In this document: in pieces, positions 597-24,752 of the stretch | Layout: every line of letters begins with the position of its first letter | Position numbering within the stretch: position 1 is the stretch's first letter | Assembly: GCF_000949135.2 (NCBI RefSeq) | Contig: NZ_JTAN02000005.1 | Location: 248,001-312,000 of the forward strand | Reading direction: 5' to 3' | Origin: Burkholderia sp. USMB20 | Lineage (GTDB): Bacteria; Pseudomonadota; Gammaproteobacteria; Burkholderiales; Burkholderiaceae | Length of the DNA: 64,000 nucleotides | Translations under genes and position numbers: made by a program | The notes under the pieces: model-generated | Database searches by the model: none | Told to the model about the DNA's origin: nothing | Seen by the model: the letters and a program-made list of their open reading frames with translations, nothing else

Positions 597-1297
<701 letters not shown>

Positions 1298-1298
<1 letters not shown>

Positions 1299-3339: not shown

Positions 3340-3350
3340 CTGCGTCTCCC

Positions 3351-4277
<927 letters not shown>

Positions 4278-4409
4278 GTGCGGGAAGCTCCCGTTGGCGC
4301 TGGGTCGCGTGCCGTCGCCGGATCACGGCGGTCGGCCGCGCGCAACGCACGGTGTCGTCTCGGGCCGCCCGTCGGCCGCGCAATGCGGTCATGCGCGGCG
4401 CGAATGCAC

Positions 4410-4443
4410 GCCCGCCCCGTCCGGGTCTCGGACAGGGCGGACG
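4410..4443. promoter_or_regulatory. Stem-loop between livJ and livH
   Basis: A GC-rich inverted repeat with core GTCCG-GGTCT-CGGAC, extended by CGCCC/GGGCG arms with one mismatch. No T-run follows, so it more likely stabilises the livJ mRNA 3' end or attenuates read-through than stops transcription fully. Confidence 0.5.
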
Positions 4444-4462
4444 CGCGGGCGGGTACGCCGGA

Positions 4463-5581: not shown

Positions 5582-6394
5582 CTGGGAGCTCCTCGATGTT
5601 GTTTAGTCATACGGGCAAAGGCGGCATGACTTGCGCAATCGAACAGCACCCGGGGCGAGGACATGGGACACGCCCGAGACACATGAAGACGGACCTGCGG
5701 ATGAATGTTGCGTAGCGGGGCCCGGCTCTTGCAGTCCCCCAAGGGGGACGTCTGGTTCGGAAAGACATCGTGATGCGTCTTGCATTGCGCAAGCGTTTCG
5801 CCTGCCCCGCTTGCCAACTGCTTGTTCGGAGGGATGGTCCGACAGCCGTTGGCAAGGCAGTCGAAATTATATGGGGGTTTTTAAATCGTCTGTCAAAAAT
5901 GCCGCTTCTATGAGGGAAAACACGGAGAAACTGGGCTGGGGAGAGGTGGCGATTTGGGAGCAACTCGGGCGGGTGGAGAACGTTTGCGGTGGGTGCAATT
6001 GGGTTGCGATTTTGGGTCTGGTTGTGGGGTTGTGGCTTGATGGGTGGGGGTTTGCGGCGATTTGTGGTTGTGGATCGTGCGATTTTTTGTTTTTGGGGGT
6101 CGGTGCTTTTTAAATCAATCGACTGAGGATTGCGTTGGCGTGTACCGAGGTGGGGCGGTGTGTTGGATCGGCAAATCCTTCCATATGCTGACGTTTACGG
6201 CATATACGAAAGCTTTTTGTTATTTTTATGAAATAATGCGAACTCTCCTCTGCAATCCAGCCAGCCTTCCCGCGAACCGCGCCCGCCGCGCTTCGCCGTC
6301 GCTTCAGGGCCGCTTCAACGCCCGTCCGCCGTTCAGTCTCGCCAGCCAGTGATCTGCCGTTTTTTCAATGCACATCACCTGCTTCGGATCGCAT
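5582..6394. other. Gene-free stretch: liv leader and left edge of island
   Basis: No convincing gene. The part next to livJ (5582-5860) is GC-rich and holds the liv promoter/leader, with a palindrome at 5734-5749. From about 5870 composition changes sharply: the + strand becomes G/T-rich (5930-6110), then A/T-rich (6170-6245, e.g. TTTTTGTTATTTTTATG), which may contain the promoter of the next gene. Short frames here have no codon bias. Confidence 0.6.
5734..5749. repeat. Short perfect palindrome in liv leader
   Basis: GTCCCCC-AA-GGGGGAC, 7-bp arms. It lies about 150 bases upstream of the livJ start and could be an operator or an RNA hairpin. Confidence 0.5.
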
Positions 6395-7012
6395 ATGAAT
6401 CATCCCTTCCGTCTTTCTTCCGCCGCCGCGCTTGCTTGTGCGCTTTCTGTTTCTACCGTCGACGCCTCGGGCCGCGATTCGCTGGTCGATCGCTCGGGCG
6501 GTGCCAACGTGTTTCGTTCGGAACGTCAGGCCGTGGCTCGCGATGATGGGCGCTCGGCACGCGCAACCCGACGCGTAAAGTACGCTGCGCCGGCTGAACG
6601 CAGCCCGTTCGATACGCCTGATACGCGGCCGGTGCGGGTGTCAGGCGATACGCTCGAATCGCAAACTCCGTCGGTACACGAATCCGATTTTGTATTGCCC
6701 GCGAATCGCGTTGCGCTCGGCGCGGGTGGGAGCGACAGCCTCGGGCGCGCTTTGCCCGGATATGAACAGCGTGCGCAGAACTGGAACGAATACCTGCGGG
6801 CAAATGGATCGCGACGTGTCGGCAGCGGCGGCTCGTATGCGCCAACGCGGGCTTACGATGCCGCGCGCGGGCCGCACGGTACGCCGAATCCGTTTGATCC
6901 ATCGGTACCGCAACCGGAGACCCGGACGTTCTACGACAACGGCGCCGGTACGCATTGCACGGCTACAGGTGGTGCGGGAACGTCGCGGTCGTCGTGCAAT
7001 ATTGCCTGGTGA
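6395..7012 (+). CDS. Putative secreted protein of unknown function
   Basis: A 205-aa protein starting MNHPFRLSSAAALACALSVSTVDASG, a plausible Sec signal peptide (basic n-region, alanine-rich core). An earlier ATG at 6368 would add nine residues. The rest is hydrophilic, rich in Ser, Gly, Arg and Pro, with no recognisable domain. Two cysteines near the end (HCTATGG, SSCNIAW) could form a disulfide. No clear ribosome binding site. It stands alone at the left end of the island, upstream of and convergent with symE. It could be a surface or cell-envelope protein; function not recognised. Confidence 0.55.
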   Translation: MNHPFRLSSAAALACALSVSTVDASGRDSLVDRSGGANVFRSERQAVARDDGRSARATRRVKYAAPAERSPFDTPDTRPVRVSGDTLESQTPSVHESDFVLPANRVALGAGGSDSLGRALPGYEQRAQNWNEYLRANGSRRVGSGGSYAPTRAYDAARGPHGTPNPFDPSVPQPETRTFYDNGAGTHCTATGGAGTSRSSCNIAW

Positions 7013-7102
7013 TGCATTGGGGCGGCTGATAGCGGCTACCCTGCCTTGCCCGGCGCGCTGCGCGACGTCGCGCAGCGCGGCCGCGTCTTGCGGCGTTGCC
7101 TT

Positions 7103-7321
7103 TTACAGTTTCGTGATGATCAGCCTGCCAGGCTCAATATCAATCCGTGCCTTCTGGCCGGGTACGAAACACGCATCTTCGATCAGCCACATTCCACCAA
7201 TCTTCATGTACGGGTAGAACTTCTCCGGCTTGATGTCCGTTTTCGGGGTACCCCACATTTCCTGGATCGTGACGAAACGTTCCGTCTTCGGTGGTCGTGC
7301 TTTATGATTCGGCTTAGCCAT
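7103..7321 (-). CDS. symE: SymE-like toxin family protein
   Basis: A 72-aa basic protein. The C-terminal half YPYMKIGGMWLIEDACFVPGQKARIDIEPGRLIITKL matches the SymE pattern (a hydrophobic G-x-WL motif, then an F-x-x-G-x-x-x-x-I block and a G-x-L-x-I end). SymE of E. coli is an SOS-induced AbrB-fold toxin controlled by the antisense RNA SymR. The ATG at 7321 has AGGAG six bases upstream, which decides it over the TTG at 7327. I saw no LexA-like box in the 100 bases upstream and cannot identify a SymR-like RNA by eye. Toxicity here is an inference from family. Confidence 0.75.
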   Translation of the reverse strand: MAKPNHKARPPKTERFVTIQEMWGTPKTDIKPEKFYPYMKIGGMWLIEDACFVPGQKARIDIEPGRLIITKL

Positions 7322-8043
7322 GGGCAACTCCTGATAAGTTGGCTGTGGTTAGCGGGTCGTGAGTGTTGGTAGCACTTGCGGCCCGCGCTCGTTTACTGCG
7401 GCGTTTTTTGTGGTTGGGATTCCTCCTTTGTTTTTGCCCCGATGAAAGCAATGTTTCGATAGGGCCTACCGGTTACGTTGCGTCCATTCGCGCGCGCGAT
7501 GCCCGCGCGATCATCATTGGACATTGCCTATTAGACCATCGTTAACGCTCAATATTTTCGGCTTGTGCGAACGTTAGCCGTTAGGCATAGGTACGAAATT
7601 TCGCCTGCGTGCGTAGCGCCATTGCATGCGAAGATGCGGAAGGAAAAGCTAATCGACGCGGACGCCGATCGGCCTCGGACGCGATCATTCGAAACAGTTG
7701 GAATGAATTGGCTTCACTCACGGTACGGGCACAGTTCGATACAGAAGCGACTGCTGCTCCGTCTCTTCCAACTGCCCCGACATGAAGAAGTTTCTCGCTG
7801 GAAACGTTCTTTTTCTACACCTTCTACAGGCTGCAATCGGCCCTGAGTCGTCATCCGCTTGCCGTCGCGAATGGCTCGCCAAAGCAACTCTTCCATATCA
7901 TACGAGCACGCGATCCAACTAGGTACCGACAAACGCCACCTCAATCTCGTACTCGTTCCGGACATGTCTCTAGATACCAGCAAAACTGATATACACAACC
8001 AACTATTGAACAGTACGTCGCGACCCGGATGCGTGTAATTTCG
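7322..8043. other. Gene-poor spacer in island
   Basis: About 720 bases without a supported gene. The symE promoter must lie at its left end. Frames at 7565-7846 (+) and 7714-7998 (-) lack codon bias, good starts and recognisable content. Base composition is near 50% GC, well below the flanking core. Confidence 0.55.
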
Positions 8044-8541
8044 CTACAAATAACTCGTCGTAAACGATGCGAAAATCGCCGAAACACCATCTTGAAAATC
8101 GCCGGGAGCTTTGGGAGAAAGAAGTACGAACACGTCGGTGCGCGAGAAAAGCAAGCTGGTGCGGTACTGTTCTATCCTCGCAACGACATCATATCTATGT
8201 GGTAGATTCCCCGGCTCGTTTGGTCCCGGCCGTGTTCCGACTGAAAATCCCGCGGCGCGAAGAATAACTTCGGCGTCGTCAAATGAGCTTCCGAGCGGAA
8301 TGTAGCGAACTGCGAGCCAAGTAATGTCCCCGGCTTTATCTATCTCTTGGGTCGAGCCGCTTTGGGGAACCTTCTGATACGCCTTGTCGATTTCAATGCG
8401 AAATCTTTTTCCCAGTACTTCGAGATCTTGCCGAGGGGATGCGTGCGACGCCCAAGGTACGAGCGCAAGATAAAGCGGCACCCATAATCCCGCGCGTATC
8501 GCGGTACGTCGTTGGGAGGCCAGCTTCCGACTTTTTGCCAT
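8044..8541 (-). CDS. Putative exported protein of unknown function
   Basis: A 165-aa protein. The start at 8541 (MAKSRKLASQ) is fixed by a strong GGAGGT five to six bases upstream; the frame itself reaches 8577. Residues about 12-36 (IRAGLWVPLYLALVPWASHAS) form a signal peptide or anchor. The mature part has no cysteine and no recognised motif; it contains a stretch (SSFDDAEVILRAAGF) seen in small lipoprotein-like proteins of proteobacteria. It diverges from the 603-aa nuclease-like gene with a 345-base gap. Function unknown. Confidence 0.65.
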   Translation of the reverse strand: MAKSRKLASQRRTAIRAGLWVPLYLALVPWASHASPRQDLEVLGKRFRIEIDKAYQKVPQSGSTQEIDKAGDITWLAVRYIPLGSSFDDAEVILRAAGFSVGTRPGPNEPGNLPHRYDVVARIEQYRTSLLFSRTDVFVLLSPKAPGDFQDGVSAIFASFTTSYL

Positions 8542-8748
8542 TGCCACCTCCGATTCGCGGGACCAGTTACATCGCAACGAGGATGGTTCTCACCGGAACA
8601 TCGCGGGCGATTGGGTTGGAGCATGCGTCCGTGGAGCCCTATCTAGCCCCAACTATTGGAAGACCGCTTCTGGCCGAACCGGGCCAACCGCCCCCTCCGG
8701 ACATCGCCCACCGCACGACCGGCGGCTGAACGCGACCCTGAGCCGCCG

Positions 8749-8782
8749 TTTGTAAGCGGTCGTCGCAACGACCGCTTACAAA
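8749..8782. repeat. Perfect 15-bp inverted repeat with 4-base loop
   Basis: Arms TTTGTAAGCGGTCGT (8749-8763) and ACGACCGCTTACAAA (8768-8782) around CGCA. It lies between two divergent genes, 105 bases before the ATG at 8887, so it is not in terminator position for either. It may be an operator, a structured leader or the scar of a small repeat element. Confidence 0.85.
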
Positions 8783-8886
8783 ATACATCCGTCCCTCGTC
8801 GTAACGATTCGACCCGGGATTAGTGAGCCATAATAGTCGCCCGACAGCGGCGCATAGTGCGCTTCAACCAACCGAACGACGAAAAA

Positions 8887-10698
8887 ATGGCGCTCCCTGC
8901 TTGGACGAAACGAACCTCTGACACCGCCAAACCAGCTCGTACCGCACGTCCAGCGGCAGAATCGGCGGGATCCAGCACGCTCGCGGCCAAGCCGCAAAAA
9001 TTCAATCACCCAAAGATTCTGCTTCTGGACGTTGATTCAGAGGTTGGGGATACGCTGCGTGAGAATTGGGCGAATGTCACGACCGCTTCCCTGGGCACCC
9101 CGTATCGCGTGGAGGTGAGCGCTGGGTTCCTTCCGGTCATACAACACGACGAACTCAATGGGCATGAAGAAGTCGACATCGTTGTTGCGGATCTATCCAT
9201 GGACGACATGGACACTCATCCTAATGGCGAACCACATCGCCCTAAAGGTGAGCTCGATTTATGGGCGAAGTGCGACATGGGCTTTATCGATGCTCGGGTC
9301 CGTACAGTCTTGCAAGAATTCCCTGCGTTCGACCGCGTACTGGACAACGGTGGCATTTTTGTGGTGTTCGCGACCCGGCGCATCCCGCTGACCTTTGTGA
9401 TGGCACGCTCGACGCCCTACGGATTTAACCAAGAACGTCAGGTTAATAGGGACGTGTGGGGCATCACGTCTGAACTTAACGACATGCGCGTCAAAGAGGA
9501 CGCAGGCGAAGAAATCCGGGTCGTCGATACATCATCCGTTGGCGCAGTGCTCGCGAAGCACTTGGATATGGCTCGGTTCGACTGCACCTTGGTGGGAGGG
9601 TACAGGGAAGAAGACGAATGGCAACCGCTGGCCGTGAACAAATACGGTCATGCAGTTGGTTTGATGCGCCGGCGTGGAAAGGGATTAACGATTGTATTAC
9701 CGCAGATAGCGCGGAAGGCCGCGTTTCTTCGAGAGTTGATGGCGACTGCGTTACCAGAACTATCGCCGCATCTCTTTCCTGAGATTGAGCGCGGGAGTTG
9801 GACTAATCGGATCGAATATGAACTACCGCGCATAGCTGAATTGCAGTCGGAGCAGGCCCGTATTGCTGCGGAAGCCAAGGCAGCGATCGCGCGGCTTGAC
9901 AGCGATATCGAGGCGGAGCGTGCGACGAATGGCTGGTTACACGACTTGCTGACGGGAACGGGCGACTCGCTAGTGATGGCGATAAAGAGAGCGCTTGGCG
10001 AAATCGGCTTTGAGCGTGTGATAGACGTCGATGAAATCCGGGATCAGGAAGGCAAAAGCCGGCGCGAAGATCTGCGTATCGAGGATCGGAGCCCATTGCT
10101 GATCATCGACATCAAGGGCATTGGTGGGTACCCAACCGACGAAGACGCGACGCAGGCGAACAAGCACGCCTTCATTAACACGAAAGAACTGGGTAGGACG
10201 GATGTGCAGGGACTTGCAATTGTCAACCATCAGCGACACCTGCCGCCCCTCGATCGTGAGAACAAAATGCCATTTCGGCAGGAACTGCTGGACGTCGCGG
10301 GCGAAACGAGTCTCGGCTTGATGACGGCGTTCGATCTGTACCGTCTGGTCGTCAACATGCGCAAACACGGATGGTCCGCGGAGCAAGTGATGGCGGTTTT
10401 CTACAGCCAACAACGTATCGAGGCTGTGCCGGCACACTATCGGTATATTGGCACGGTCGCGAAAGCCATGACGGGGAAATTTGGCGTTGTCATTTCGGAG
10501 AACAGCATCGCGGTCGGCGATCGGATAGCGGTGGAGGGGCCAATCTATTTCGATGAAGCCGACGTAGAATCTATCCAAATCAAAGGGAGTGCCGTGGAGC
10601 GTGCGCAGGAGGGCGACCCGGCTGGTTTCCTGTGGCCAGAAGGTAACGCAAGAATCCGGGAGGGCATGCGCGTATTTGCGATACCGAAGTCAACTTGA
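8887..10698 (+). CDS. Coiled-coil / PD-(D/E)XK nuclease-like / EF-Tu-domain-2-like fusion protein
   Basis: A 603-aa soluble protein. After a low-complexity leader (1-40) comes an alpha/beta region (about 43-300) with Rossmann-like strands (KILLLDVD, VDIVVADLS, GGIFVVFATRR, KGLTIVLPQ). A charged coiled coil follows (about 314-347). Residues 350-450 look like a restriction-endonuclease fold: RREDLRI gives E394/D395 and LLIIDIKG gives D408-x-K410. The end (519-600: YIGTVAK, FGVVISENSIAVGDRIAVEG, VESIQIKGSAVERAQEGDPAGF, IREGMRVFAIP) closely follows the translation-factor domain-2 beta-barrel pattern. The ATG at 8887 is preferred; a GTG at 8857 is possible and neither has a clear ribosome site. 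It sits among other nuclease and HEPN genes, suggesting nucleic-acid-directed defence. This is inference. Confidence 0.7.
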   Translation: MALPAWTKRTSDTAKPARTARPAAESAGSSTLAAKPQKFNHPKILLLDVDSEVGDTLRENWANVTTASLGTPYRVEVSAGFLPVIQHDELNGHEEVDIVVADLSMDDMDTHPNGEPHRPKGELDLWAKCDMGFIDARVRTVLQEFPAFDRVLDNGGIFVVFATRRIPLTFVMARSTPYGFNQERQVNRDVWGITSELNDMRVKEDAGEEIRVVDTSSVGAVLAKHLDMARFDCTLVGGYREEDEWQPLAVNKYGHAVGLMRRRGKGLTIVLPQIARKAAFLRELMATALPELSPHLFPEIERGSWTNRIEYELPRIAELQSEQARIAAEAKAAIARLDSDIEAERATNGWLHDLLTGTGDSLVMAIKRALGEIGFERVIDVDEIRDQEGKSRREDLRIEDRSPLLIIDIKGIGGYPTDEDATQANKHAFINTKELGRTDVQGLAIVNHQRHLPPLDRENKMPFRQELLDVAGETSLGLMTAFDLYRLVVNMRKHGWSAEQVMAVFYSQQRIEAVPAHYRYIGTVAKAMTGKFGVVISENSIAVGDRIAVEGPIYFDEADVESIQIKGSAVERAQEGDPAGFLWPEGNARIREGMRVFAIPKST

Positions 10699-11394
10699 AG
10701 CCACCTAGCGCGCAAGGTGCGCCAAACCCGATACCGGAGCAACTGCTTAGCGCGCAACGGGCGTACAAGACGGCGACTTAGATCACAAACGCCTGGCATA
10801 GCTAGACTGGGAGTGCCCGTGACCTCCGCAGTCTCGGTGATCGCTCAGGACCGAACTTGCCTGGCGTGGCGTACATGCTCACGAGGTCCGCTGTACGGCC
10901 ACTGCCCCTAGTGGGGCGAATGCACAGGCATACGTCCGCTATCCGGGCGGAGCCGCCTTTCGAATGGCCGCCCGAAAGATGATCGAACGGCCGCAATTGG
11001 CCGAACTCGGCCGGCAGCCGGGCCACTGCCCTGTGACGCGCAACCGGCCGTGTTCCTTTTCAGTCATTCAGATCCGCGTAATCAATGTTCGTTGGTTGCT
11101 CTTCAGCGGACATTAGACGCGTTTTTACGAGCAATGTCTCATTAGCTTATCGTCAATTTCGCGAGAAATCACGTTGTCGATTCCTTGGCCAACACTCCTC
11201 GGCCAATCTATTAGATGCATGGATTAGGGTTCGTCATTTCTTCCCAAGTCGCCTAGTCATTGTCATAATGACAGCCGCACCGTTCTGCACCGCTCTGCGG
11301 CACAATAAAAGTTGCTGATCTATCGTTCATCAGGCCGTAGTGCGTCGTAGGTACGGCATCCAGCCTGCTCTAGACGACGACCTAACGGTACCTC
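10699..11394. other. Gene-poor spacer in island
   Basis: About 700 bases with no supported gene. It contains a hairpin GCCCC-TAGT-GGGGC at 10904-10917, probably at the 3' end of the upstream gene, and a run of GGCCG/CGGCC words at 10980-11025. The last 200 bases are A/T-richer and should hold the promoter of the next gene. Confidence 0.5.
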
Positions 11395-12459
11395 ATGCCA
11401 TCCATAACCATTACGCTGAAAATACCGTTCGAATGCGACCCGCCTGGTGGCTTGGTGCCCGCGCTCACCTTCACTCATTGGCTTCCGTTGGGCCGCGATA
11501 AAGGTATCGCAGTTGATGACGGTGACGTGCGATTTATCTTGTGGTTTGACGAGAAGTGTACATGGTGGGCATCACAACCAACCGCTGACGAACTGAAGAA
11601 CTATGTCAACGTATTGGCACATTACGTCAATGTCGAAGTCCAGGCCTTAGACCTATCCGACGAACTGGTGGCCTACGTGCAAACTGCGAAAAATTCGGAA
11701 TCGTCCACCAAGATCAACGATAGTTTGCAGGTAGAGTACGGAATCCTCGCGCGAAAAATTTTGCTTTCCGTGCTTCAAAGGGTTAATCGACTTATCGCGT
11801 TTGCACGATCTCGGAAAGGACAGTACTGGCTAACTGAGCATAATATTGATCATGATCAGTTGCGCTCCTGTTTTCTAAAGTTCGATGCCCGAGGGCGCGT
11901 CGACGAAGGACCTTGGTTTACTTTTGTACCGCCGACTACTGACTCTATTACGATAAGGGCGGGAGGCACGAACAGCTACATAGAGGAGGATGATTGGCCG
12001 GCATTCCGCGACTTTGTCGTTGGTGCAAAGAAGCCAGACTTGGTAGGTGAACTATTGGCAGGTGCGGAGTACCTGCTTAGAGCCGGGCATCGTCGGAGCG
12101 CGCTTACAGAAGCCGTCACGGCGCTTGAGATAGTCGTATTTAGATTCTCGCAGAGCCCCAAGGCGGAAGCTGAATTCGGTGACCGTTTGGGTGGGCGATT
12201 AGGCCTTTCGACCCTTTATTCGCAAGTGAGCCACCTCGGGCTAAGTGCCACGGTAAAATATCTTTTGCCGACAATTCTTTCTGAGGATATATTGCCGGGC
12301 ACTATTCTTTCGGAGTGTCAAGAGGCGCTGACCCAGCGACAGAACGTCGTGCACAACGGTCAACGGGATGTTGACGAACGCTTTACCCAGCGCGCAATCT
12401 CGGCGATCAGAAGATTTTGCGATATTCTCAACTCACTGACGCAAACCCGGTCTGACTAA
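11395..12459 (+). CDS. HEPN-motif protein (possible RNase), unknown family
   Basis: A 354-aa soluble protein. The C-terminal third (about 215-345) is helical, with LLAGAEYLLRAGHRRSALTEAVTALEIVVFRF followed by LTQRQNVVHNG. R315 and H320 form an Rx4H motif, the active-site signature of HEPN ribonucleases; a polar residue next to R is usual and Gln316/Asn317 fit. The layout resembles Apea-like HEPN proteins. The N-terminal 200 residues are not recognised. HEPN domains are common in toxins and anti-phage systems and can also act as simple scaffolds. Codon use is less GC-biased than the core. Clear start ATG, weak ribosome site. Confidence 0.65.
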   Translation: MPSITITLKIPFECDPPGGLVPALTFTHWLPLGRDKGIAVDDGDVRFILWFDEKCTWWASQPTADELKNYVNVLAHYVNVEVQALDLSDELVAYVQTAKNSESSTKINDSLQVEYGILARKILLSVLQRVNRLIAFARSRKGQYWLTEHNIDHDQLRSCFLKFDARGRVDEGPWFTFVPPTTDSITIRAGGTNSYIEEDDWPAFRDFVVGAKKPDLVGELLAGAEYLLRAGHRRSALTEAVTALEIVVFRFSQSPKAEAEFGDRLGGRLGLSTLYSQVSHLGLSATVKYLLPTILSEDILPGTILSECQEALTQRQNVVHNGQRDVDERFTQRAISAIRRFCDILNSLTQTRSD

Positions 12460-12874
12460 TTGAATACGGCGAGGGATCACTTGAGCACCGTAAAATAGCT
12501 GGCAGAATGAAACTGGCGGTGAGGATTGCGCAAAGAGCGACGGGTTGTACTCATCGTCGCTCTTTCGTATGCCCGTTAACAAATCTTGAGCAGACGTTAG
12601 CGTATGTGGTGCGAGTGCTCGTTCTTGGCCGTCTGGAGCCCAATGCACTTGGCAGTAGCCGACCCGAACCTGACTTTCGCTTTGGAGAAAACGTAGCGGC
12701 TGCCTCCGGAGAAAAACGGCCCTCCGCTTCGGACCTCGCACGACAAGTCACCCTCGCATCGGCGATCAGGGAGCGCCGTGATCTTGACGATCCGGCGCAC
12801 CTTCGCCGAAGCGGTGAGCAGATGAATCGGCTTCACCGGTCGCATCGCTCGCCGCCTTGGCGAAGCAACCGCGG
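12460..12874. other. Spacer between convergent island genes
   Basis: About 415 bases between the HEPN gene and the next leftward gene. No supported gene; contains the word GTAGCCGACCCGAA (12656-12669) that recurs at 14732-14745. Higher GC than the adjacent genes. Confidence 0.5.
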
Positions 12875-14116
12875 CTATGCTGTCTCTGACGGACGCAGTT
12901 CTCGCAACTTCCGCGCAAGGGATGGACGCCCGGCCTTCACCAATCCATCTGCGACCATGTCAAGAATGGAGATCCTTGATAGCAGATGGTCCACGGCTTC
13001 CCACGTAAGGGTCTCGCCCAACGTCGAGGTGGTGTTAGCCAGGAGCCCTTCGTGGTGTTCGCCTAACACTTGATCCCTTCCCAAATAGTAGAGCGTCTGT
13101 ATTTCCGCGAATTCTTGTACTGTTAGCAGTGCGGAGATCGATTCAAAAAGCCGTTTGCGGCGTAACCCCTGTTCTTTGTATTTCTCGAAATCGCGATCAA
13201 AGTAATCCAATCCGAGGCCATCGCCTCCGTCGGTTTCCGGCTTGCTAGCCACCCAAAGCCGCATGGCCTCGATTGCTTTCTCATCACTGATATACTTAAG
13301 GCCTGTTTCCTTTCCGATCAAGGCCGCGAGGGGCCGCGATTGCCGGATCGAATCTATGGCATCGGAAAACTTACGGCCACTTAGACCGTATTGCTTCATG
13401 ACCTGAACTTTCTTCTCGAGGAAGCTCTCATCATTCCACGCTGATTGATCTCCCATGAAAATCGCGATAGCTTCGAGATCTTTGCGTGAACAATGCGAAG
13501 TATGCGTCCCCGTCAGCCGCTCCTCTACAATGTCTTGAACACGGTGTTTAAGGCATTGAAGGATCTCGCTGAGGTTCCCGATACTGTTGCGCACATGTTG
13601 GAGATTAATAACAGCAACATCGGACAAGCTAATTTGACCGTCCCTATTAAGCGCGTAGCGAAGCTCTTGACCGTCATCGTCTACGGCCGCCAAGCTTCTA
13701 ACAAATGGCTCAAGGTCGGAAACGGTTTTTCTCAACGATGCGTCTCCGAGGGCGGCATTGGGGCCGCCCCCTGCGGATTGCAGATGTTGCCAATGACCAT
13801 CAATGTCGTGATTAACTGGAAAGCCTTGCGTAAGCATCCCTGACTTGTGCAGGCGGTCAATTGCATATTTCAGCGACAGTTCAAGACCGTGCCGGCAGTT
13901 ATAAAGTATGGGCATAGCCAACGTATCGCGGCTGCCAATCAAGCGCTTGTCAATAACGGCGCTTGCGAGTTCAAGCGCTGCCTCAAGATAGCCGTCAACA
14001 TAATTTTCAGCGTCACCTTGGATACCTACACAGGCATTCCATTCCCCATCGTAAATCGTCTCAAAAAAGGGATCCATCGCCTTTGAGGTGGCACCAACGT
14101 TGTCTTCTTTTTTCAT
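12875..14116 (-). CDS. Hypothetical island protein
   Basis: About 413 aa if started at ATG 14116 (MKKEDNVGATSKAMDPFF); a GTG at 14161 would lengthen it by 15 residues, and ATG 14077 is another option, since no start has a strong ribosome site. An early helical motif NCRHGLELSLKYAIDRLHKSG resembles helices found in HEPN-like and DNA-associated island proteins, but the R-x4-6-H signature is not clear. The rest is acidic and helical, with no membrane segment. Convergent with the HEPN gene. Lower GC. Function not recognised. Confidence 0.65.
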   Translation of the reverse strand: MKKEDNVGATSKAMDPFFETIYDGEWNACVGIQGDAENYVDGYLEAALELASAVIDKRLIGSRDTLAMPILYNCRHGLELSLKYAIDRLHKSGMLTQGFPVNHDIDGHWQHLQSAGGGPNAALGDASLRKTVSDLEPFVRSLAAVDDDGQELRYALNRDGQISLSDVAVINLQHVRNSIGNLSEILQCLKHRVQDIVEERLTGTHTSHCSRKDLEAIAIFMGDQSAWNDESFLEKKVQVMKQYGLSGRKFSDAIDSIRQSRPLAALIGKETGLKYISDEKAIEAMRLWVASKPETDGGDGLGLDYFDRDFEKYKEQGLRRKRLFESISALLTVQEFAEIQTLYYLGRDQVLGEHHEGLLANTTSTLGETLTWEAVDHLLSRISILDMVADGLVKAGRPSLARKLRELRPSETA

Positions 14117-15040
14117 ATAGATTTTGCCGAGGCGATCAGTCGCCCGCCAGTATGCCAACACACCGCGGTAACGTCACCTGGTTCTCAAGCGACTCAGCCC
14201 CGATGACCTTGAAGGTCTGCCTCCAAAGGCGGAACCGACGCGGGATGTTCGGAGTCGCCCTACTGCCGAATGTTGCCTGTTTGCCGGTGCCGGAAGGATC
14301 GGATTCGAAGTAGCACTCCCGCCCGAACTGCGTCGTGCTCTAGCCACATTGCCCACATATCAACCGAACGATCGCCGACAACTCCGGAGTTGGTGCCTGT
14401 ACCCGTGGTAAGCGCCGTTCGCTGCCTATGGATACAGGGACCGAAAAAGCAGCGTTCAGCTTCCAGGAGCGAATGGCCGATTGCCGGGTATAGTGTTGAA
14501 AAACTCTTCCGTCAGGTGCCCGGGCAAGTTTTCGGGAGTCGTCTTACCCCTAGCCGATGCTCACGGGCGGCTTGTAGAGCGATCTGAGAGGCTGATTTTT
14601 CTCGGCGCGGTGCGCCCGCGGGCAAAAGTGAATTTTTCAACACTATCCGGGTACAGCCGACGCTTGAACGTCAGGGAAACAAAATGCGCGAACGCCCCCT
14701 CATGGCCGCCTGCCGCCCGACGCGGTCGGCCGTAGCCGACCCGAAGCGGTCCTTCGGACTTGGTTGAAGCGGACGGTCACGTGGACGTTGAGTCGCGAGC
14801 GGCGGCCTGCCAAGGTGAGTCGGCTCAAGCGACCGGTCGCTCCCCCAACGATTGAACGCAGATAACTCTTCCGGCAGCTTGCAGCGTGTGGCGCTATCGT
14901 GCACAGATTCCATGTTGGCAGGGCCCACTGAAGATGCCGGATATACGACTGCAACTATTCCCTCTTGGTCAGACGTATCGATCAATTTCTTATTGAATTG
15001 GGGGAGTCCATATGTGCCATGTTAGAGAACGGGTTAGCAA
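14117..15040. other. Gene-poor spacer in island
   Basis: About 920 bases with no supported gene although both neighbours read leftwards. It holds the first copy of a 22-base GC-rich motif (14736-14757) and a hairpin CCGAAG-CGGTC-CTTCGG inside it. Short frames here lack codon bias. It may represent remnants of older inserts. Confidence 0.5.
14736..14757 (+). repeat. Dispersed 22-base motif, copy 1
   Basis: CCGACCCG, three variable bases (AAG), then CGGTCCTTCGG. The second copy is at 17142-17163 in the same orientation with TTT in the middle. Confidence 0.6.
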
Positions 15041-16174
15041 CTACATTGAGAGCCTGAACCTCTCGATGGCCTGACCAATTATCTTCTCTGGATTGCCCCC
15101 CGCCATTTTGGCCAGCAGCATTGCTTCCATATCTTCGTCATTTACGACCAAGATCATTTTATGGTTGGCCACCCACTGCTCTCTTATAGTTAGAAGAGCA
15201 CCATTGTCCGCACCAATTCGCGTCACAATCATCGCGAACATTCCTGCGCCGTGGACCTTAAGATAGTTCGCCAACTGCAATACCTGGCTCTTTGAAATCG
15301 CTGCCCTATAATTCTTCGCATCAACAACAATGTAGTCAGCGCGGTACTTTTCTCTCACAAAATTCCAAAAACCTTGGTCAGCATAGTTCGGGATGATCCA
15401 GTCCCGTCTGTTAATGCCTTCACGATCTGCCAACTCGGAAATTGGCGTTTCCAAAGGAGGGCAAAATAAATGCTCAAGAATTTGTCCAATGAGCTTTTGG
15501 TATTCCGACCAATACTCTTTACCCTTCTTGCATGCCTTCAGGCTGGCTATGAATTCTTCTTCTAGTGTCTTGCTCGCCGATGGCCGGGAAGCGGAGAGGA
15601 TCGCCTGAAATACCGGGTGTGGTATTGATGAAACTTCGGACTTGAATTTGTTTGCCAGTGTATTGACATCCCAAGACTCAATGCCATGGGCGCTTAATGC
15701 GCTTACTTGAGCTGCAGATAACAGCCCGGGAAACGCCAATACATACCTATCAAATTTCGTTAGCGCTTTATACGACTCGATCTGACTGATCGCCTGATCC
15801 ATGCGCGCAGGGGTGAACGAAGAAGAATTTTTACACTCGATCAGCCAAGTCTTACCATCCTTAGATCGTGCGGTTATGTCGGCTCGAAACGGCTTTTCCC
15901 GTGAAAGGCGCTCTTCAAGCTTGATATCTTCAAATTCCGATGACCTTGTGAGGAGGCTCGCAAGATAGTGATTGAATTCAGCTTCGGTAAAATTTCGATT
16001 GGTGATTGACCGATTACAGTTGGCGCATATCAATATCAAATTGGCTTCGTCATCGGTGCCACCTGCTGAGCGAGGGAGAATGTGGTGAATTTCTAGCGGG
16101 ACTCCAGTTGCACCACAAATGGGGCAGCGCTCACCATGTTTCTTCATCAGCCGGTCCTTCAGTTCGCGCCTCAT
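15041..16174 (-). CDS. HNH plus double PD-(D/E)XK-like nuclease
   Basis: A 377-aa protein with three nuclease-type modules. Residues 14-58 form a zinc-ribbon HNH (C17, C20, H30-H31, N45, C50, C53). Residues about 95-170 resemble a restriction-endonuclease fold: RADITARSKDGKTWLIECKN gives D99 and E113-x-K115. Residues about 225-370 give a second: R257-D258 in INRRDWIIPNY and D285-x-K287 in YIVVDAKNY. ATG at 16174 follows GAGAGA. HNH and Mrr/PD-(D/E)XK domains are typical of restriction and anti-phage enzymes, usually one per protein. A palindrome lies about 50 bases upstream. A likely DNA-cutting defence protein, but no methyltransferase is next to it, so it could target modified or foreign DNA. 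Confidence 0.8.
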   Translation of the reverse strand: MRRELKDRLMKKHGERCPICGATGVPLEIHHILPRSAGGTDDEANLILICANCNRSITNRNFTEAEFNHYLASLLTRSSEFEDIKLEERLSREKPFRADITARSKDGKTWLIECKNSSSFTPARMDQAISQIESYKALTKFDRYVLAFPGLLSAAQVSALSAHGIESWDVNTLANKFKSEVSSIPHPVFQAILSASRPSASKTLEEEFIASLKACKKGKEYWSEYQKLIGQILEHLFCPPLETPISELADREGINRRDWIIPNYADQGFWNFVREKYRADYIVVDAKNYRAAISKSQVLQLANYLKVHGAGMFAMIVTRIGADNGALLTIREQWVANHKMILVVNDEDMEAMLLAKMAGGNPEKIIGQAIERFRLSM

Positions 16175-16224
16175 TGTGTCTCTCAGGAAAATCGGATGTT
16201 ACTAGTTCTCTAACTTTGAATAAC

Positions 16225-16240
16225 CTGACCTCTTGGTCAG
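16225..16240. promoter_or_regulatory. Palindrome upstream of HNH/PD-(D/E)XK gene
   Basis: CTGACC-TCTT-GGTCAG, perfect 6-bp arms, 51-66 bases before the start codon in an A/T-rich patch. Placement suits an operator; no regulator is encoded next to it. Confidence 0.4.
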
Positions 16241-16456
16241 CGTAACAATTATTATCAGAGCGTAAAATTATGCCATCGTACCCCGCATGTAGCCTCGATT
16301 CTTGCAAAGCCGGGTCCGTATAACAACACGCCTAATCATTACGTGGAATTGAACACCTGTCCATGAACGAGTTGCCGCCCGAATGGCAGCTTTGCAGCCA
16401 CCTTCGCGAACTTCTGCTTTTGGCCGGCAAGCGACCGCTCGCCGGCCGCGATGCCA

Positions 16457-17083
16457 TCAAACCTCCGTCTGCTCCGCCATCTCAAGGGCATCGTCGACCT
16501 CGATGCCGAGATAGCGAACCGTGCTTTCCAGCTTCGTGTGTCCGAGCAGCAACTGCACCGCCCGAAGGTTCTTCGTTCGCCGGTAGATCAGCGAAGCTTT
16601 TGTGCGTTGCATCGTATGGGTTCCGTATGCAGTATCGTCAAGGCCAATCGATGCAATCCAACGATGTACCAGCCGGGCATATTGCCGCGTCGACAGATGC
16701 GGTGACGTGTGCGACCGGCTCGGGAATAGAAAATCTGCCGCCTTCAGTCCTCGCGCTTCGATCCAAGCTTCGAGGCTCTCACGGGTCTGTTCCGTGATCT
16801 CGAATTGCACCGGCCGCTGGGTCTTCTGCTGCATGATTGTCGCTCTGGACGCCACTTGGCTTCCGTGGCGGACATCTTGGACCAGCAACCGCGTAAGATC
16901 GCACGCTCGGAGCTTGCTATCAATTGCGAGATTAAACATCGCGAGCTCACGAAGGTTCGACGCTATTTGAAGTCGCGTCCGAATCGCCCAGATTTCTCGG
17001 AGCTTTAACGGCGGCTTCTGCCCGGTAAGCTTGCCCTTGTTCCATGGCACACGGTGACGAACGACGACATTCTCGGATTCCAT
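16457..17083 (-). CDS. Short tyrosine recombinase with altered catalytic box
   Basis: A 208-aa protein spanning mainly the catalytic domain of a phage-integrase family recombinase. R59 (SKLRACDL), H182 (LLGHTKLESTVRYLGI) and nucleophile Y191 are present. The HxxR box reads H156-T-M-Q159-R160, so the catalytic arginine three residues after the histidine is Gln (CAA; one transition from CGA). The family is the short island integrase type seen in Burkholderia and Bordetella. GAGAGGAGA upstream of the ATG at 17083 supports the start. It probably mobilised this island but may now be inactive. Confidence 0.88.
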   Translation of the reverse strand: MESENVVVRHRVPWNKGKLTGQKPPLKLREIWAIRTRLQIASNLRELAMFNLAIDSKLRACDLTRLLVQDVRHGSQVASRATIMQQKTQRPVQFEITEQTRESLEAWIEARGLKAADFLFPSRSHTSPHLSTRQYARLVHRWIASIGLDDTAYGTHTMQRTKASLIYRRTKNLRAVQLLLGHTKLESTVRYLGIEVDDALEMAEQTEV

Positions 17084-17141
17084 GACAATCTCCTCTCAAG
17101 CGAAGGGGGATTGAGTGTGCGCCTTTTCCGGCGGGCGCTAT

Positions 17142-17163
17142 CCGACCCGTTTCGGTCCTTCGG
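17142..17163 (+). repeat. Dispersed 22-base motif, copy 2
   Basis: CCGACCCG, TTT, CGGTCCTTCGG; matches 14736-14757 except for the three central bases. It lies just upstream of the recombinase gene. Confidence 0.6.
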
Positions 17164-17332
17164 CGCATCACACCACAAATGGCAGTATCGGGTGCACAAG
17201 GGACATTCTCATTCCCAGCCATCGACAAGCCGAAGCCGATTTGCCACCGGACGATTTGGCCTGAGTCCCGCGCCGTGTGGTGCCGAGACCGAAACTCCTA
17301 TGTGCTGTTGTTCGAATATCCAATTGACTTCG

Positions 17333-18316
17333 TCAAATAGTTAGTGGAATTTGATTCCAGTTGCCAATGAATTCATCCGCACGACCACAAACCAAATGGC
17401 CTTGATACGCAGCCGGTAGTTGCACCAGCGGTACATAAAACGACGTGACATCTGGGTCCCTAAGCCTTATCGTCATATGCTGACGAATCAACCCTGATAG
17501 CGGTCCATTGCTGTTGAGCAACGGGAATGGGCTATACCTCACGCAGAACATAACCACCGCTGCTGCAATCGCATGAAGGCAATTTTCAAGCGTTGCCAAA
17601 TTAAAGTGCGTCGCTCGGTCATGCTTCGTCTTGTTGTATGCATCATACCAAGGTAGCGACGCGGTAGGGTTAGATGCGCGCCACCCGCGAAACGGTGTTA
17701 CTACAGGCAGCGTCTGAAACAAAGAATAAGAAATTTCATAATCGGCGAGATGCAATGGTCTCAATAATCGCACGTATTGATTTGTAGTGGGCCGCACCGT
17801 AGCAGATCCAGCTAACCTTAAATATTGACTCCATGCATTCTCGATTTCGGTGCAAGCCAGAATGAGCAATTCTCGCGTTTTGTGCCCATAGGAACCCAAG
17901 CCTGTAGGTGACGGTTCGATGTACAACAAAATTTCGTCAAGTTTTTCGACGAGGATACGCAACGCCTGTTCGGCGGAGCGTTGTTCGAATTGGTTCGTCG
18001 ATAACGCTTGATGAATATGCGATTCGGAATATAGGCCGGGGCGCCATACTCCGGCGACAACGGTTCCCGGGGGAGTTTGCAGCTCAACGATGTTCTGCGC
18101 CCCGAATGTGGCGGCAACCCAATCATCTAGGGACGCGGCACCGATCACTTGGGTGACGGTTAAGCCAGGCGACATGATAAAAAGGTGATCATTGTGTGCA
18201 TAGACGTGAATATTGTAGCCGTCAGCTTGATACGCGTAACCTCGCGGTTGATCGTTGTGTATGGGAGCCCAGCCTGGAATGGTTGTAATCGTATTCTGAT
18301 AGCTAATTGCGCGCAT
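17333..18316 (-). CDS. Hypothetical protein with NKTKHDR motif
   Basis: A 327-aa soluble protein. The ATG at 18316 (MRAISYQNT) has GAGG five bases upstream, better than the upstream ATG at 18367. Around two thirds in, WYDAYNKTKHDRATHFNLATLENCLHAIAAAVVMFCVRY combines a polar N-K-x-K-H-D-R signature with a long hydrophobic helix. This block occurs in many uncharacterised island proteins and may be a HEPN-like helical bundle, but the catalytic spacing is not convincing. Low GC, A/T-rich codons. It is followed upstream by an HNH gene in the same direction (141-base gap), so they may be co-transcribed. Confidence 0.65.
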   Translation of the reverse strand: MRAISYQNTITTIPGWAPIHNDQPRGYAYQADGYNIHVYAHNDHLFIMSPGLTVTQVIGAASLDDWVAATFGAQNIVELQTPPGTVVAGVWRPGLYSESHIHQALSTNQFEQRSAEQALRILVEKLDEILLYIEPSPTGLGSYGHKTRELLILACTEIENAWSQYLRLAGSATVRPTTNQYVRLLRPLHLADYEISYSLFQTLPVVTPFRGWRASNPTASLPWYDAYNKTKHDRATHFNLATLENCLHAIAAAVVMFCVRYSPFPLLNSNGPLSGLIRQHMTIRLRDPDVTSFYVPLVQLPAAYQGHLVCGRADEFIGNWNQIPLTI

Positions 18317-18457
18317 ATATTCCTCAATTTTGAAGCAATCACTCAATTTTGGAGTGCACCCGGTCATCTGCGTGGCTCTCTAATCTCCGAATGAGTTTTC
18401 GTTGAGTTGGCCAATGGCGCGACCCCACCGACCAGCGAATGCGAGGCAGCAAAAAAG

Positions 18458-19225
18458 TTACAACTCGATTTCCTCTAGATCACGAGCGAGTCTGCCGAGG
18501 AGTGTCGGTGAAACCCATGTGGTTTTGTTGACTGGAATAGAAGCCACATTCTTGTTCGGTTCTAAAGGCACGCCCATGGGGGTCACCCAGCCTCCAAGAC
18601 ATTTAATGAACTCCCTCCAAATATGCTGCGGTTCATTTTTGTAAGGGATGATGACGTAGAACCAGTAACTTCTAAATGCGATCAACCTAATGCAAAATCT
18701 ATTGCTAAATCTTCCATCGTAGGAGACAGTGGCGGATCTCAAGACTTCGGGTCTCAGCGCTCCGACTTCATGGCCAATCACAGTAGTGGCTCTTGATGTC
18801 GTTACGATCTGCAACCGCACCATCACCGACGGAAATGCTCCGCCTTGAAGGATCTGCTTCGCGAAGCGTGACAACAGTTTTCTTTGCTTTTCATTTGCTG
18901 TTGATCGCACTGAATTATACGAAATCTTCAGCAAGCCGCGAAGCAGCGTATTGTAATCATAGATGAGATCAGCAGGCTGCCCGGCCTCAATGCAGTTGGA
19001 AAAGTAACGATCGAACAAGTCCGCCAGATACATATCAACCTTGCTTAAGTGGCGATTGTTACATTCCCCGCAAACATCTTTGACAACGGGCTCACCTTGA
19101 TGAAAATCCTCATTCTTAGGATTGTACGTCAGGAGAGATTCGCACTTCCGAAGTATGTTGGCGGGCCAGATATGCTCTCTCGTAAATTTTTCATTCGCAG
19201 TATTGCAATACGCGCATCTTTTCAT
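18458..19225 (-). CDS. HNH endonuclease-like protein
   Basis: A 255-aa protein beginning MKRCAYCNTANEKFTREHIWP. C4, C7, H18 and C52-x2-C55-N56-N57 make a zinc-bound HNH-like motif (HNH_5 type: C-x2-C, EHI-x-P, C-x2-CNN). The remaining 180 residues are not recognised and may bind DNA or a partner. ATG at 19225; weak ribosome site. Low GC and A/T-rich codons mark it as acquired. It is upstream of and probably co-transcribed with the 327-aa gene. Could be a homing-type, restriction or effector nuclease; function unproven. Confidence 0.72.
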   Translation of the reverse strand: MKRCAYCNTANEKFTREHIWPANILRKCESLLTYNPKNEDFHQGEPVVKDVCGECNNRHLSKVDMYLADLFDRYFSNCIEAGQPADLIYDYNTLLRGLLKISYNSVRSTANEKQRKLLSRFAKQILQGGAFPSVMVRLQIVTTSRATTVIGHEVGALRPEVLRSATVSYDGRFSNRFCIRLIAFRSYWFYVIIPYKNEPQHIWREFIKCLGGWVTPMGVPLEPNKNVASIPVNKTTWVSPTLLGRLARDLEEIEL

Positions 19226-19572
19226 AGCTCGGCTCCCGTATGTATTTTTATGGGTCTAGCCTAACGCAGACCTTCTCCAAAAATCCCCGCAGAAAACTAA
19301 AACTCGGCAACTAATTGTCGGCTGTCAGATTAGAACCTTGAGTGTCCCGTCGATACCTTTCTGGTACGTACGTCTGCAGTCGCGTGTAGAGCCGACGTTC
19401 GAACGTCCGCATGGTCGCGTTTGCGACAGTCCGATTGTGGCCGGAAGTCGCCAGTCGCCGCCCTGCGCGGCTCGACCAGCAACCTCCGCCCCCGGAGCGG
19501 CCTCGGGCCATCTCGGAAACTGCCGTTCGCAGTACGCAGAGCAGCGACAGGAGCAATCGTGACGCCCCTTTC
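19226..19572. other. Spacer in island
   Basis: About 350 bases; no supported gene. GC rises back to above 60% from about 19370. Probably contains the promoter of the HNH gene at its left end. Confidence 0.45.
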
Positions 19573-20220
19573 TCACGAGCTACTCGCTCCTCCATCCAGC
19601 TGGCTCAAAAAACCCCAGATATAGAAGGTCGGGGTGCGCCGCCGAACCCCCAAACGATAGATGCCGATGCCGCTCGTGAGATGGCGCTCACCTAGGTGCG
19701 GGGCCTGCAATTGCCACGCGTTCCATAGAACTTCTGATTCGCTGAATGCATGGCCGTCTTGCGCATGGCATAACGTCGGCGGCTTGTGGCTGCCCTTTGG
19801 ACCGAAAGGTGCGAGGTAAATGGCCGATGTCTTTAGCAGCGAAGCATTATCGCGCGGGTCTTGATGGCCTCGTGCTTGGACGATCTGTTGAGCCAGTTGC
19901 AACAAAGATTCGGGCCTTTGCTCATGCCAGTTCAACGATTCGAACTGACCGTAGGCCAAGGGAAGATCTGGCCTGTGAATGCTAGCCTCGAGCTCCGAGT
20001 ATTCATCGGTCCGCAGATAATGCGCTCGCGACCAGAACACAGTACGTCGCACGCGGTAGTAGCTAAAGGTGCCGGACAAGTTCTCCATGCCCCAGGCTTG
20101 CTTCTGTGGCCACCAAGCGTCATACATGACCACATCTGCATCAAACGCGATCACGCGAATAGGATGTTCTGTCCAGTCAGTTTGGAAGACAGCACCAAGT
20201 TCAAGTGGAGGATGGTTCAT
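19573..20220 (-). CDS. Hypothetical protein
   Basis: A 215-aa soluble protein. The N-terminal half has HPIRVIAFDADVVMYDAWWPQKQAWGMENLSGTFSYYRV, with strand-like and aromatic-rich segments. This looks like a conserved family but I do not recognise it. The start at 20220 lacks a clear ribosome site. Stop is followed by spacer sequence. It is the rightmost gene of the island before composition returns to that of the core. Function unknown. Confidence 0.55.
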   Translation of the reverse strand: MNHPPLELGAVFQTDWTEHPIRVIAFDADVVMYDAWWPQKQAWGMENLSGTFSYYRVRRTVFWSRAHYLRTDEYSELEASIHRPDLPLAYGQFESLNWHEQRPESLLQLAQQIVQARGHQDPRDNASLLKTSAIYLAPFGPKGSHKPPTLCHAQDGHAFSESEVLWNAWQLQAPHLGERHLTSGIGIYRLGVRRRTPTFYIWGFLSQLDGGASSS

Positions 20221-20613
20221 GTATGACTAGGCACCTCATACGCTTTTTGTGACTGGCAGCGGCCAAAGACACGTACGCAATTGTCGACGATCTGGACGTT
20301 AACATCGACCGGTTGAATCCCGAAACGCGTACGGATAGTTAGCGATCACTCAAACCTTCCCGACAGGCGTTTGTGCGACGATACCTTGGAAATGAAAAGT
20401 TCAATGTTCGAATCGTCTGGCGATACCGCAACCTTTGTCCTATATGCAGAAAAGTCGCGCAAGAATATTGAAAATCGCCATTACATCTGACGATGAACAC
20501 ACCTGAATCAACATGTTTCCGGCCGAAATCGCCCACGCATATTGAACCCCGCGCAAGAATGAGTAAGATGCCCGAAAGGCTGTCAAAAACAACCCATCGC
20601 GCGGGGTAGCCAA
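20221..20613. other. Right edge of island / promoter region of luxR-type gene
   Basis: About 390 bases without a supported gene. Composition shifts back towards core GC. No tRNA gene or obvious attachment-site repeat is visible. Confidence 0.45.
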
Positions 20614-21705
20614 ATGCAACGGAACGAGTTGATTCCATCGGCATTGCTCGATGACATCTACGCTGCAGCACTGGGCGATCAGAGATGGGAAGTCGTGCTC
20701 GACGGCTTGCGATCGTCGGTAGGCGTGCGCATGGCCACGCTGCTGTCGTTCGACGATACGGCGGGAGTGCCGGTCATCGACCGGGCTGCGGGCGACGACG
20801 AGCCGTGGGTTGCCGATTGCCGCCGCGCATACAACACCGAGTTCTATCTGTATGACCCGGTCGTACCGATCGCCGGCAACTGGCCGACTGGTCGCTGGTT
20901 CGAGGACGTCAAGCAACTGTCCCGCCCGCAGCGCGAACACTGCGTGTTCTACCAGGAATTCCTGAGGCCATACGGAATCGGCAGCATCGCCGGCCTGTAT
21001 ATCCATCGCGGCGAGCACACCGGCGCATTCCTCAGCGTACAGAGCGGCCCCGAATCGCAGGGCCTGTCGGACGCACAGCGCGTCGCGATCGAAAGCATGG
21101 GCGCACACATCAGCCGCGCGTTGCGGATCGAGGCACGCATCGGCGAACTCGAAGCACGCGTGGCCGCCGCGGAATCGGCGCTCGATGCGCTTCCGGTGCC
21201 GGTGTTCTTACTCGGCGCGCAACGCGAACTCCGCTATACGAATCGCGCAGCCGATCAACTGATCGCGGCGGAACCTGCGCTGCGGATCGTGAATGGGCGC
21301 TTCGCACCGGAAGGCTGCGTCGAGGATGCGCAATGGCGGCACGCGTTCGCGCGCGGTGGGCTGTTGCTGCGCCGTGCGACGGGTGAACCGCTACCGCTTG
21401 CGCTGATACCGGTGCCCGAACAGTCACGCCTCGTGCGCGAGCGGCCCGGCGTCGTGGCATTGATGACGGCAGCCGACCTGCGTTCGCCGGCGGCACGCGC
21501 GCAGCGGCTGCGCGTGTTCTACGGACTGTCGTCGGCCGAAGCCGATCTCGCGGTGCTGCTGTGCTGCGACGGACACTCGCCGCAGGAATGCGCCGAGCTG
21601 CGCGGCGTGTCGATCGGCACGATCCGCTCGCAGATCAAGTCGATCTATGCGAAGACGGAAGTGACGCGGGCGGCGCAATTGACGTCGCTGGTCATGCAGA
21701 CGTGA
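20614..21705 (+). CDS. LuxR-family transcriptional regulator
   Basis: A 363-aa cytoplasmic regulator. Residues about 290-355 form a LuxR-type helix-turn-helix (LSSAEADLAVLLCCDGHSPQECAELRGVSIGTIRSQIKSIYAKTEV). The region around 190-230 (ALDALPVPVFLLGAQRELRYTNRAADQLI) looks like a PAS domain, and the first 170 residues like a GAF-type sensor. The effector is not predictable. It converges on yfiB with only 7 bases between stops, so it is not part of that operon. Start ATG with a weak GGGGT upstream. Confidence 0.88.
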   Translation: MQRNELIPSALLDDIYAAALGDQRWEVVLDGLRSSVGVRMATLLSFDDTAGVPVIDRAAGDDEPWVADCRRAYNTEFYLYDPVVPIAGNWPTGRWFEDVKQLSRPQREHCVFYQEFLRPYGIGSIAGLYIHRGEHTGAFLSVQSGPESQGLSDAQRVAIESMGAHISRALRIEARIGELEARVAAAESALDALPVPVFLLGAQRELRYTNRAADQLIAAEPALRIVNGRFAPEGCVEDAQWRHAFARGGLLLRRATGEPLPLALIPVPEQSRLVRERPGVVALMTAADLRSPAARAQRLRVFYGLSSAEADLAVLLCCDGHSPQECAELRGVSIGTIRSQIKSIYAKTEVTRAAQLTSLVMQT

Positions 21706-21712
21706 CGCCCCC

Positions 21713-24361: not shown

Positions 24362-24752
24362 ATGATTGCTTCCATCTTAGGTAAAAATTCGCAACCCGAA
24401 CCAGTGGGATACTCCCGCCAAATCGCAATCGGAAAATAGGGCGAATCGGTGCGATGCGCGACGATGCGAGCGAACGTGTTTGCCGACGACGATCGAGCCT
24501 CGACTTCGGAAAATTGATCAGTGGATTGAACGCACGCGCGCGTCAACCTTCATACATTCGTCCCGGCTTCGACGGATCTTCATCCACCGCCCGACGCGCA
24601 TCTTCTGCCAGAAGCGGTCACGTCATTTCTCCCGTCGCGATCGCCCCGCGAGCGGCACCGCCGGCCACGAATCGATATCGACGAAAATACCGGTGCGTGA
24701 ATCCTGCCGCCACACGCCGGCATGCGGGAACCGGCCTGCACATTGGAGCGCC
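24362..24752. other. Divergent promoter region yfiR / lysR
   Basis: About 390 bases between divergent genes. The 24370-24480 part is A/T-richer and probably holds both promoters. No gene supported. Confidence 0.5.

Follow-up and report, generated by a model that had tools for sequence, protein, structure and literature searches.

P0001 of Burkholderia sp. USMB20, a divergent member of an unnamed family with a predicted PD-(D/E)XK-type nuclease domain and an EF-Tu-domain-2-like barrel, is a candidate single-protein defence nuclease

A 603-residue protein encoded in a 14.7-kb stretch of low GC content

The DNA analyzed here is a 64,000-nucleotide stretch of Burkholderia sp. USMB20 (contig NZ_JTAN02000005.1, positions 248,001 to 312,000), hereafter called the window. 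It contains an open reading frame (ORF) at 8887-10698 (+), with an alternative GTG start at 8857, that encodes a protein of 603 residues. We call this protein P0001 and propose it as a candidate defence nuclease carried by mobile elements. An earlier note, made from the sequence alone, had described an island protein of this length with an alpha/beta region, a coiled coil, a nuclease-like E/D ... D-x-K motif at residues 394-410 and a C-terminal barrel similar to EF-Tu domain 2, and its author knew of no named system with this layout. The frame is indeed open and its product has relatives that cover about residues 42-577, nearly its whole length. Likewise, no named system with this layout was found in the Pfam, NCBIfam, PADLOC and PHROGs scans or in the literature searched. 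The features of the locus are listed in Table 1, in which the domain assignments are predictions from sequence profiles.

The setting is island-like, as the note had stated. Of the 399 Burkholderiales genomes sampled, G298 (locus L121) is the closest relative found, with a DNA identity of 97% in the adjacent transporter gene. It aligns to the window from 597 to 7024 and then from 21707 onwards, the two blocks being about 0.23 kb apart in the relative, showing that the 603-residue gene sits in a 14.7-kb stretch that was inserted or replaced. The GC (guanine plus cytosine) content of this stretch is 0.543, compared to 0.65 and 0.686 in the flanks. No sequence word of 12 to 30 bases is common to its two ends.

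Table 1. Coordinates of the P0001 gene, of the predicted parts of its product and of the surrounding stretch.
Feature	Residues	Position in the window	Strand	Basis
Whole gene		8887..10698	+	603 aa; relatives align over nearly full length
14.7-kb stretch absent from closest relative found		7025..21706	.	G298 alignment and GC content
Conserved N-terminal domain, probably alpha/beta	40-300	9004..9786	+	Leave-one-out profile; E95, G207 and P272 invariant
Linker, little conserved, possibly helical	306-345	9802..9921	+	
Predicted PD-(D/E)XK-type nuclease domain	340-515	9904..10431	+	NERD is the closest among three families compared
Active-site-type motif E394-D395 ... D408-x-K410	394-410	10066..10116	+	Read from sequence; E394, D395 and K410 invariant in 42 rows
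Predicted EF-Tu-domain-2-like beta-barrel	519-600	10441..10686	+	hhalign and profile matches to other carriers

P0001 is a divergent member of a rare, unnamed family

Scanning genomes with P0001 as the only query initially returned no loci. Alignment-led scans gave 21 loci on viral contigs (60 candidate stretches) and 33 loci on genome contigs (50 candidate stretches), and family members were detected by tblastn in 9 of 72,556 plasmid records and in 1 of 50,697 phage records. Two of the 33 genome loci share one contig; L034 and L056 are two family matches on one 24-kb Trichocoleus contig, one of which comprises only the C-terminal half (query residues 290-577). Interrupted or truncated copies are found in L021, L026, L028 and L038, and intact ones exist elsewhere.

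The family is rare. Among 399 Burkholderiales genomes, a full-length copy was present only in the genome used as centre, and four more genomes match the barrel alone. Similarly, the 398 Pseudomonadota genomes yielded a full-length copy in the centre genome and one other genome that matches the barrel alone. No match was obtained in 5,426 genomes of E. coli in three DNA searches with the genes of relatives.

In a leave-one-out test, profiles of the three parts of the protein were built without the window sequence and then run against P0001. All three matched, at residues 40-299 (N part, 82.7 bits), 341-512 (nuclease part, 114.9 bits) and 535-576 (barrel part, 19.8 bits), while the best of 999 protein shuffles reached 5.9, 4.3 and 4.6 bits respectively. 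Moreover, 19 positions are invariant in 42 full-length rows of the family alignment. Whole P0001 has no match in PHROGs or among PDB sequences, and PDB sequence relatives were found neither for the full-length profile nor for the nuclease part or the N part. Together, these results show that P0001 is a divergent member of an unnamed family.

The central part carries a conserved motif of the PD-(D/E)XK type

In the motif of P0001, E394-D395 is followed after 12 residues by D408-x-K410. E394, D395, K410, G411, D418, Q423 and K426 are among the invariant positions (42/42 rows). At position 408, at least 90% of the 42 rows have E, and P0001 has D. The rows in which the motif residues are invariant come from Pseudomonadota, Bacteroidota, Cyanobacteriota, Ignavibacteriota and Myxococcota. 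When the nuclease part was compared by hhalign with a NERD (PF08378) template of 12 sequences, out of 16 matches, the alignment reached 53.3% (score 32.6), a score that none of 200 column shuffles equalled (maximum 23.0). It places the E/D ... E-x-K region of NERD exactly on E394-D395 ... D408-x-K410. None of the cross-pairings (barrel with NERD, nuclease part with EF-Tu, N part with either of them) exceeded 0.6%. The nuclease-like motif noticed earlier is thus backed both by its conservation and by the NERD alignment at the same site. With D395 and K410, and with E or D at position 408, the family has the conserved D and the (D/E)-x-K that, following a beta-strand, characterize the PD-(D/E)XK superfamily.

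Assignment to a particular family of this superfamily gave less clear results. On a 35-row nuclease sub-alignment, Pfam matches were weak (NERD in 2/35 rows, best 0.0026; NOV_C in 2/35; PDDEXK_9 in 1/35), and unrelated families also match, for example Ehrlichia_rpt in 3/35 rows. Membership in NERD proper was rejected, as P0001 is below the Pfam cut-off and only two rows match weakly. NERD proteins are not known to have this N-terminal domain and barrel. NOV_C was rejected as well: its hhalign score, from three template rows, was 20.2, and the best shuffle reached 20.0. Shedu (SduA), a single-gene system of the PD-(D/E)XK type, also has an additional N-terminal domain and is not known to have such a barrel. 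P0001 has no Pfam or PADLOC match to Shedu: SduA_C (PF14082) was not listed in the Pfam scans, and the hhalign score against 8 SduA sequences (14.8) lies inside those of 60 shuffles (mean 12.8, maximum 21.2).

The C-terminal barrel resembles EF-Tu domain 2

The 35-row C-terminal alignment was compared by hhalign with an EF-Tu domain 2 template of 30 sequences, out of 35 matches listed. The comparison gave 90.9% (score 35.9), as against a maximum of 17.0 in 200 column shuffles and 10.4 for the reversed alignment, so that the proposed barrel is confirmed at the level of profile similarity. GTP_EFTU_D2 is also the top Pfam family for this sub-alignment (4/35 rows, best 4.5e-4, the window's own row not being among them), and GTP_EFTU_D4 matches 2/35 rows. 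P0001 does not look like a translational GTPase, since no GTPase-domain family was listed for it or for the 42 rows.

The N-terminal region is conserved but the coiled coil is not supported

For the N part (residues 43-300), neither a useful Pfam family nor a PDB match was found, and a ThuA-like domain was rejected (hhalign 5% only, four template rows). The alpha/beta region of the earlier note survives as a pattern that fits residues 43-300 by eye; the Pfam, PDB and ThuA comparisons gave no fold for it. The coiled coil is not supported: the heptad periodicity of P0001 is not significant (p = 0.26) and p < 0.05 is reached in only 8 of the 42 family rows.

The barrel is found in proteins of other architectures

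The barrel profile matches the C-terminus of a 418-residue protein in G005 (L143; E 1.4e-7) and, more weakly, a protein in G001 (5.8e-4), both of which we take to be U32-like. TrhP, which is needed for tRNA hydroxylation, carries U32 and U32_C domains according to PMC6599085, from which, rather than from a search with the PF16325 model, the label U32_C-type (PF16325) was taken here. Stand-alone lysine-rich barrel proteins occur in 4 of the 399 Burkholderiales genomes. These EF-Tu-domain-2-like barrels (L123, L124, L125 and L126) have long lysine- and alanine-rich N-terminal tails, and those of L123-L125 adjoin a similar membrane-protein-like ORF. By profile, the C-terminal domain of the P0001 family is similar to EF-Tu domain 2 (PF03144), to the U32_C-type barrel and to the stand-alone barrels. 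The partner of the barrel differs: it is a GTPase, a U32 domain or a lysine-rich tail in those proteins and a nuclease-type domain in P0001.

A further match (E 3.2e-9) is a 361-residue protein in G992 with the barrel at its end. It contains RNDCSH, presumably the RX4H pattern of HEPN RNases. The gene of this HEPN-like protein (locus L159) overlaps a DUF262-like gene with a DGQQR motif, the pair spanning 5359-7645 of L159, and a recombinase-like gene, read by eye, lies nearby (3253-4263). DGQQR is the motif given for DUF262 in PMC10952713, which lists PD-T4-2 under both DUF262 and HEPN; operons of HEPN families with ParB-like nucleases are listed in PMC3710099. The L159 pair, whose HEPN-like member ends in a P0001-type barrel, resembles DUF262 and HEPN systems such as PD-T4-2. 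P0001 has a PD-(D/E)XK-type domain where these have HEPN, and among its neighbours no DUF262 partner was recognised. In a test run jointly on carriers of the barrel, 44.2 bits were obtained for the HEPN-like protein, 30.3 for the U32-like protein and between 25.2 and 34.7 for three stand-alone barrels, as compared to 10.9 for the highest-scoring of 2,000 shuffled decoys. The search for other barrel architectures in plasmid records returned a single record, the family member already known, and no further HEPN-barrel copies were found in plasmids or viral contigs.

Relatives are carried by mobile elements, several of them in a defence-type setting

We compared 840 neighbouring ORFs from 58 loci: the window, 20 of the 21 viral loci, 31 of the 33 genome loci and 6 of the 9 plasmid or phage loci. 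In 10/58 loci, the family gene has within about 6 kb a relative of the gene annotated as site-specific integrase in L001, a locus on a Synechocystis PCC 6714 plasmid, and the remaining recurring neighbour clusters resemble backbone genes of phages or plasmids. Genes for phage heads, tails and lysis are found on the plasmid record L006. The family gene is adjacent to a repressor-like gene, or overlaps it by a little, in five loci (L008, L010, L011, L026 and L039). A PHROG check, which took in ten neighbour proteins from four loci, confirmed the prophage repressor-like neighbour in L039 (phrog_4), a locus in a prophage of Pseudomonas fluorescens 28B5.

In 4 of the 20 viral loci (L017, L021, L027 and L030), the family gene is located between P2-type portal-like and replication-A-like genes, with PHROG support in L017 (portal 2.7e-144, replication 3.2e-259); the L021 copy at this site is interrupted. 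The tin gene of P2 belongs to another family. Together with old, it is held by the gpA-gpQ region of P2, described in PMC9122126 as an antiviral hotspot, and the family gene is like the systems of this hotspot in lying between replication and portal genes. A Pycsar cyclase gene lies 1.1 kb downstream of the family gene in L036 (G009:C29:24518-25228); it is one of two strong PycC matches in 29 genomes (about 150 Mb), both of them in the genome of this locus. In L055, an HsdS-type gene is directly upstream of the family gene, and the genome of L035 has a Shedu-type gene 12.5 kb away. Several relatives among the 58 loci thus have a defence-type setting, that of a hotspot (the P2-type site in 4/20 viral loci) or of an island (Pycsar and HsdS neighbours, in one locus each).

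The same neighbourhoods bear on two alternatives to a defence nuclease. In the first, mobile elements would carry the family gene for a different purpose, for instance maintenance of the plasmid or prophage, recombination or exclusion without a nuclease. Its occurrence on plasmid records and the lack of a useful Pfam family for the N domain would suit this possibility, which we nevertheless regard as improbable in view of the invariant catalytic-type residues, the P2 hotspot position and the copies beside the Pycsar and HsdS-type genes. In the second, the gene would act like a toxin in an addiction role, so that cells retain the element that carries it. A RelE-type toxin-antitoxin pair is indeed found beside the gene in L002, L004 and L060, and a PIN and antitoxin pair adjoins it in L007. 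However, these pairs look complete in themselves, a RelE-type pair is near the gene in only 4/58 loci and no small partner gene recurs across lineages in the 58 loci, making an addiction role very improbable. More generally, no partner gene was seen in at least three loci across lineages among the 58, beyond the integrase and the phage or plasmid backbone genes, a result that fits a single-gene system.

Other genes in the window

The 14.7-kb stretch likely contains a second defence gene (15041-16174, -), coding for a protein of 377 residues. This protein has an HNH (1.3e-13) and an Mrr-type (1.1e-7) nuclease domain and matches the PADLOC candidate models PDC-M36A (1.1e-15) and PDC-M01B (1.7e-7). 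A 354-residue protein (11395-12459, +) matches NurA over residues 67-165 (2e-5, above the Pfam cut-off) and, weakly, PglZ (0.0089). The 208-residue product of 16457-17083 (-) belongs to the phage integrase family (2.9e-17), is short for an integrase and might be one piece of the recombinase of the island. A 255-residue protein (18458-19225, -) matches HNH_5 weakly (5.2e-4, below the cut-off). Outside this stretch, a second one of about 5.7 kb (24470-30136) is not in G298, which has about 0.33 kb there.

Proposed function of P0001

From the anatomy of the protein and the context of the family gene, we infer a nuclease activity, a defence function and roles for the N domain and the barrel. The reading that we favour, and consider fairly probable, is that P0001 acts as a single-protein defence nuclease, a cargo of mobile elements directed against other phages or plasmids. 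The N-terminal domain would probably be a sensor or regulator, the PD-(D/E)XK-type domain would perform metal-dependent cutting of nucleic acid and the EF-Tu-domain-2-like barrel would direct the enzyme to its target. We think that this target is more likely RNA at or close to the translation machinery (tRNA or rRNA) than DNA of phages, given that the barrel was otherwise met in translation factors, in U32-like proteins, in one HEPN-like protein and in small stand-alone proteins.

A possible alternative, to which we give real though lesser weight, is a DNA-directed, restriction-like nuclease. Here, the barrel or the N domain would recognise phage DNA or replication or packaging structures, and the barrel would be a general protein or DNA contact unrelated to translation. 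NERD is the nearest nuclease family tested, most defence enzymes of the PD-(D/E)XK fold cut DNA, and the tails of the three stand-alone barrels scanned weakly match a histone H1-like DNA-binding family, far below the cut-off (at most 24.6 bits, cut-off 80). The nature of the other barrel carriers argues in the opposite direction, as does the fact that, among the 58 loci, no methylase or other self-protection gene was seen beside the family gene in as many as three. This alternative overlaps with the defence nuclease that we favour, our estimate for which covers either substrate. The barrel may be a module common to unrelated nucleases, which would favour RNA or translation targeting. A bolder proposal, which we put forward tentatively and think rather unlikely, is that it is an interchangeable module taking unrelated defence nucleases (PD-(D/E)XK in P0001, HEPN-like in L159) to tRNA or the ribosome, and that the family is a single-gene, translation-directed class of PD-(D/E)XK defence.

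Several observations weigh against a defence nuclease with a targeting barrel. Whole P0001 has no match in NCBIfam or PADLOC and nothing above the cut-off in Pfam, where the sole listing is Phage_Mu_Gam (E 0.33); when its three parts were each scanned with Pfam, the window's own rows again matched nothing. In the 42-row tree, P0001 is on a long branch (3.47) and shares at most 26% identity with any row, suggesting that its function may have drifted. The NERD alignment spans 28 columns and is of moderate strength. As regards the barrel, Pribosyltran_N also matches 2/35 rows, and the PDB comparison listed 11 rows at E 0.74 to 1.5, with PRPP synthetase as the best (E 0.74) and eRF3 at about 1. 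Two actinobacterial relatives (L007, and L009, a weak one at E 8e-3) end without the barrel, indicating that it is not part of every version of the family. The HEPN reading of L158/L159 is one case, built on motif and operon. Finally, the neighbour ORFs were called with a crude script and the neighbour scans list 25 of 106 PADLOC and 25 of 102 Pfam families. These scans were made without a control set, and PycC and HsdS were selected for searching in the light of their results, so that the neighbour counts describe the loci and do not measure an enrichment.

If the favoured reading is true, P0001 represents an unnamed single-gene defence family that extends over at least five phyla and is not in the libraries searched. 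A translation-factor barrel would then have been re-used as the targeting part of nucleases of different folds, and such re-use, if true, makes RNA or ribosome targeting directly testable.
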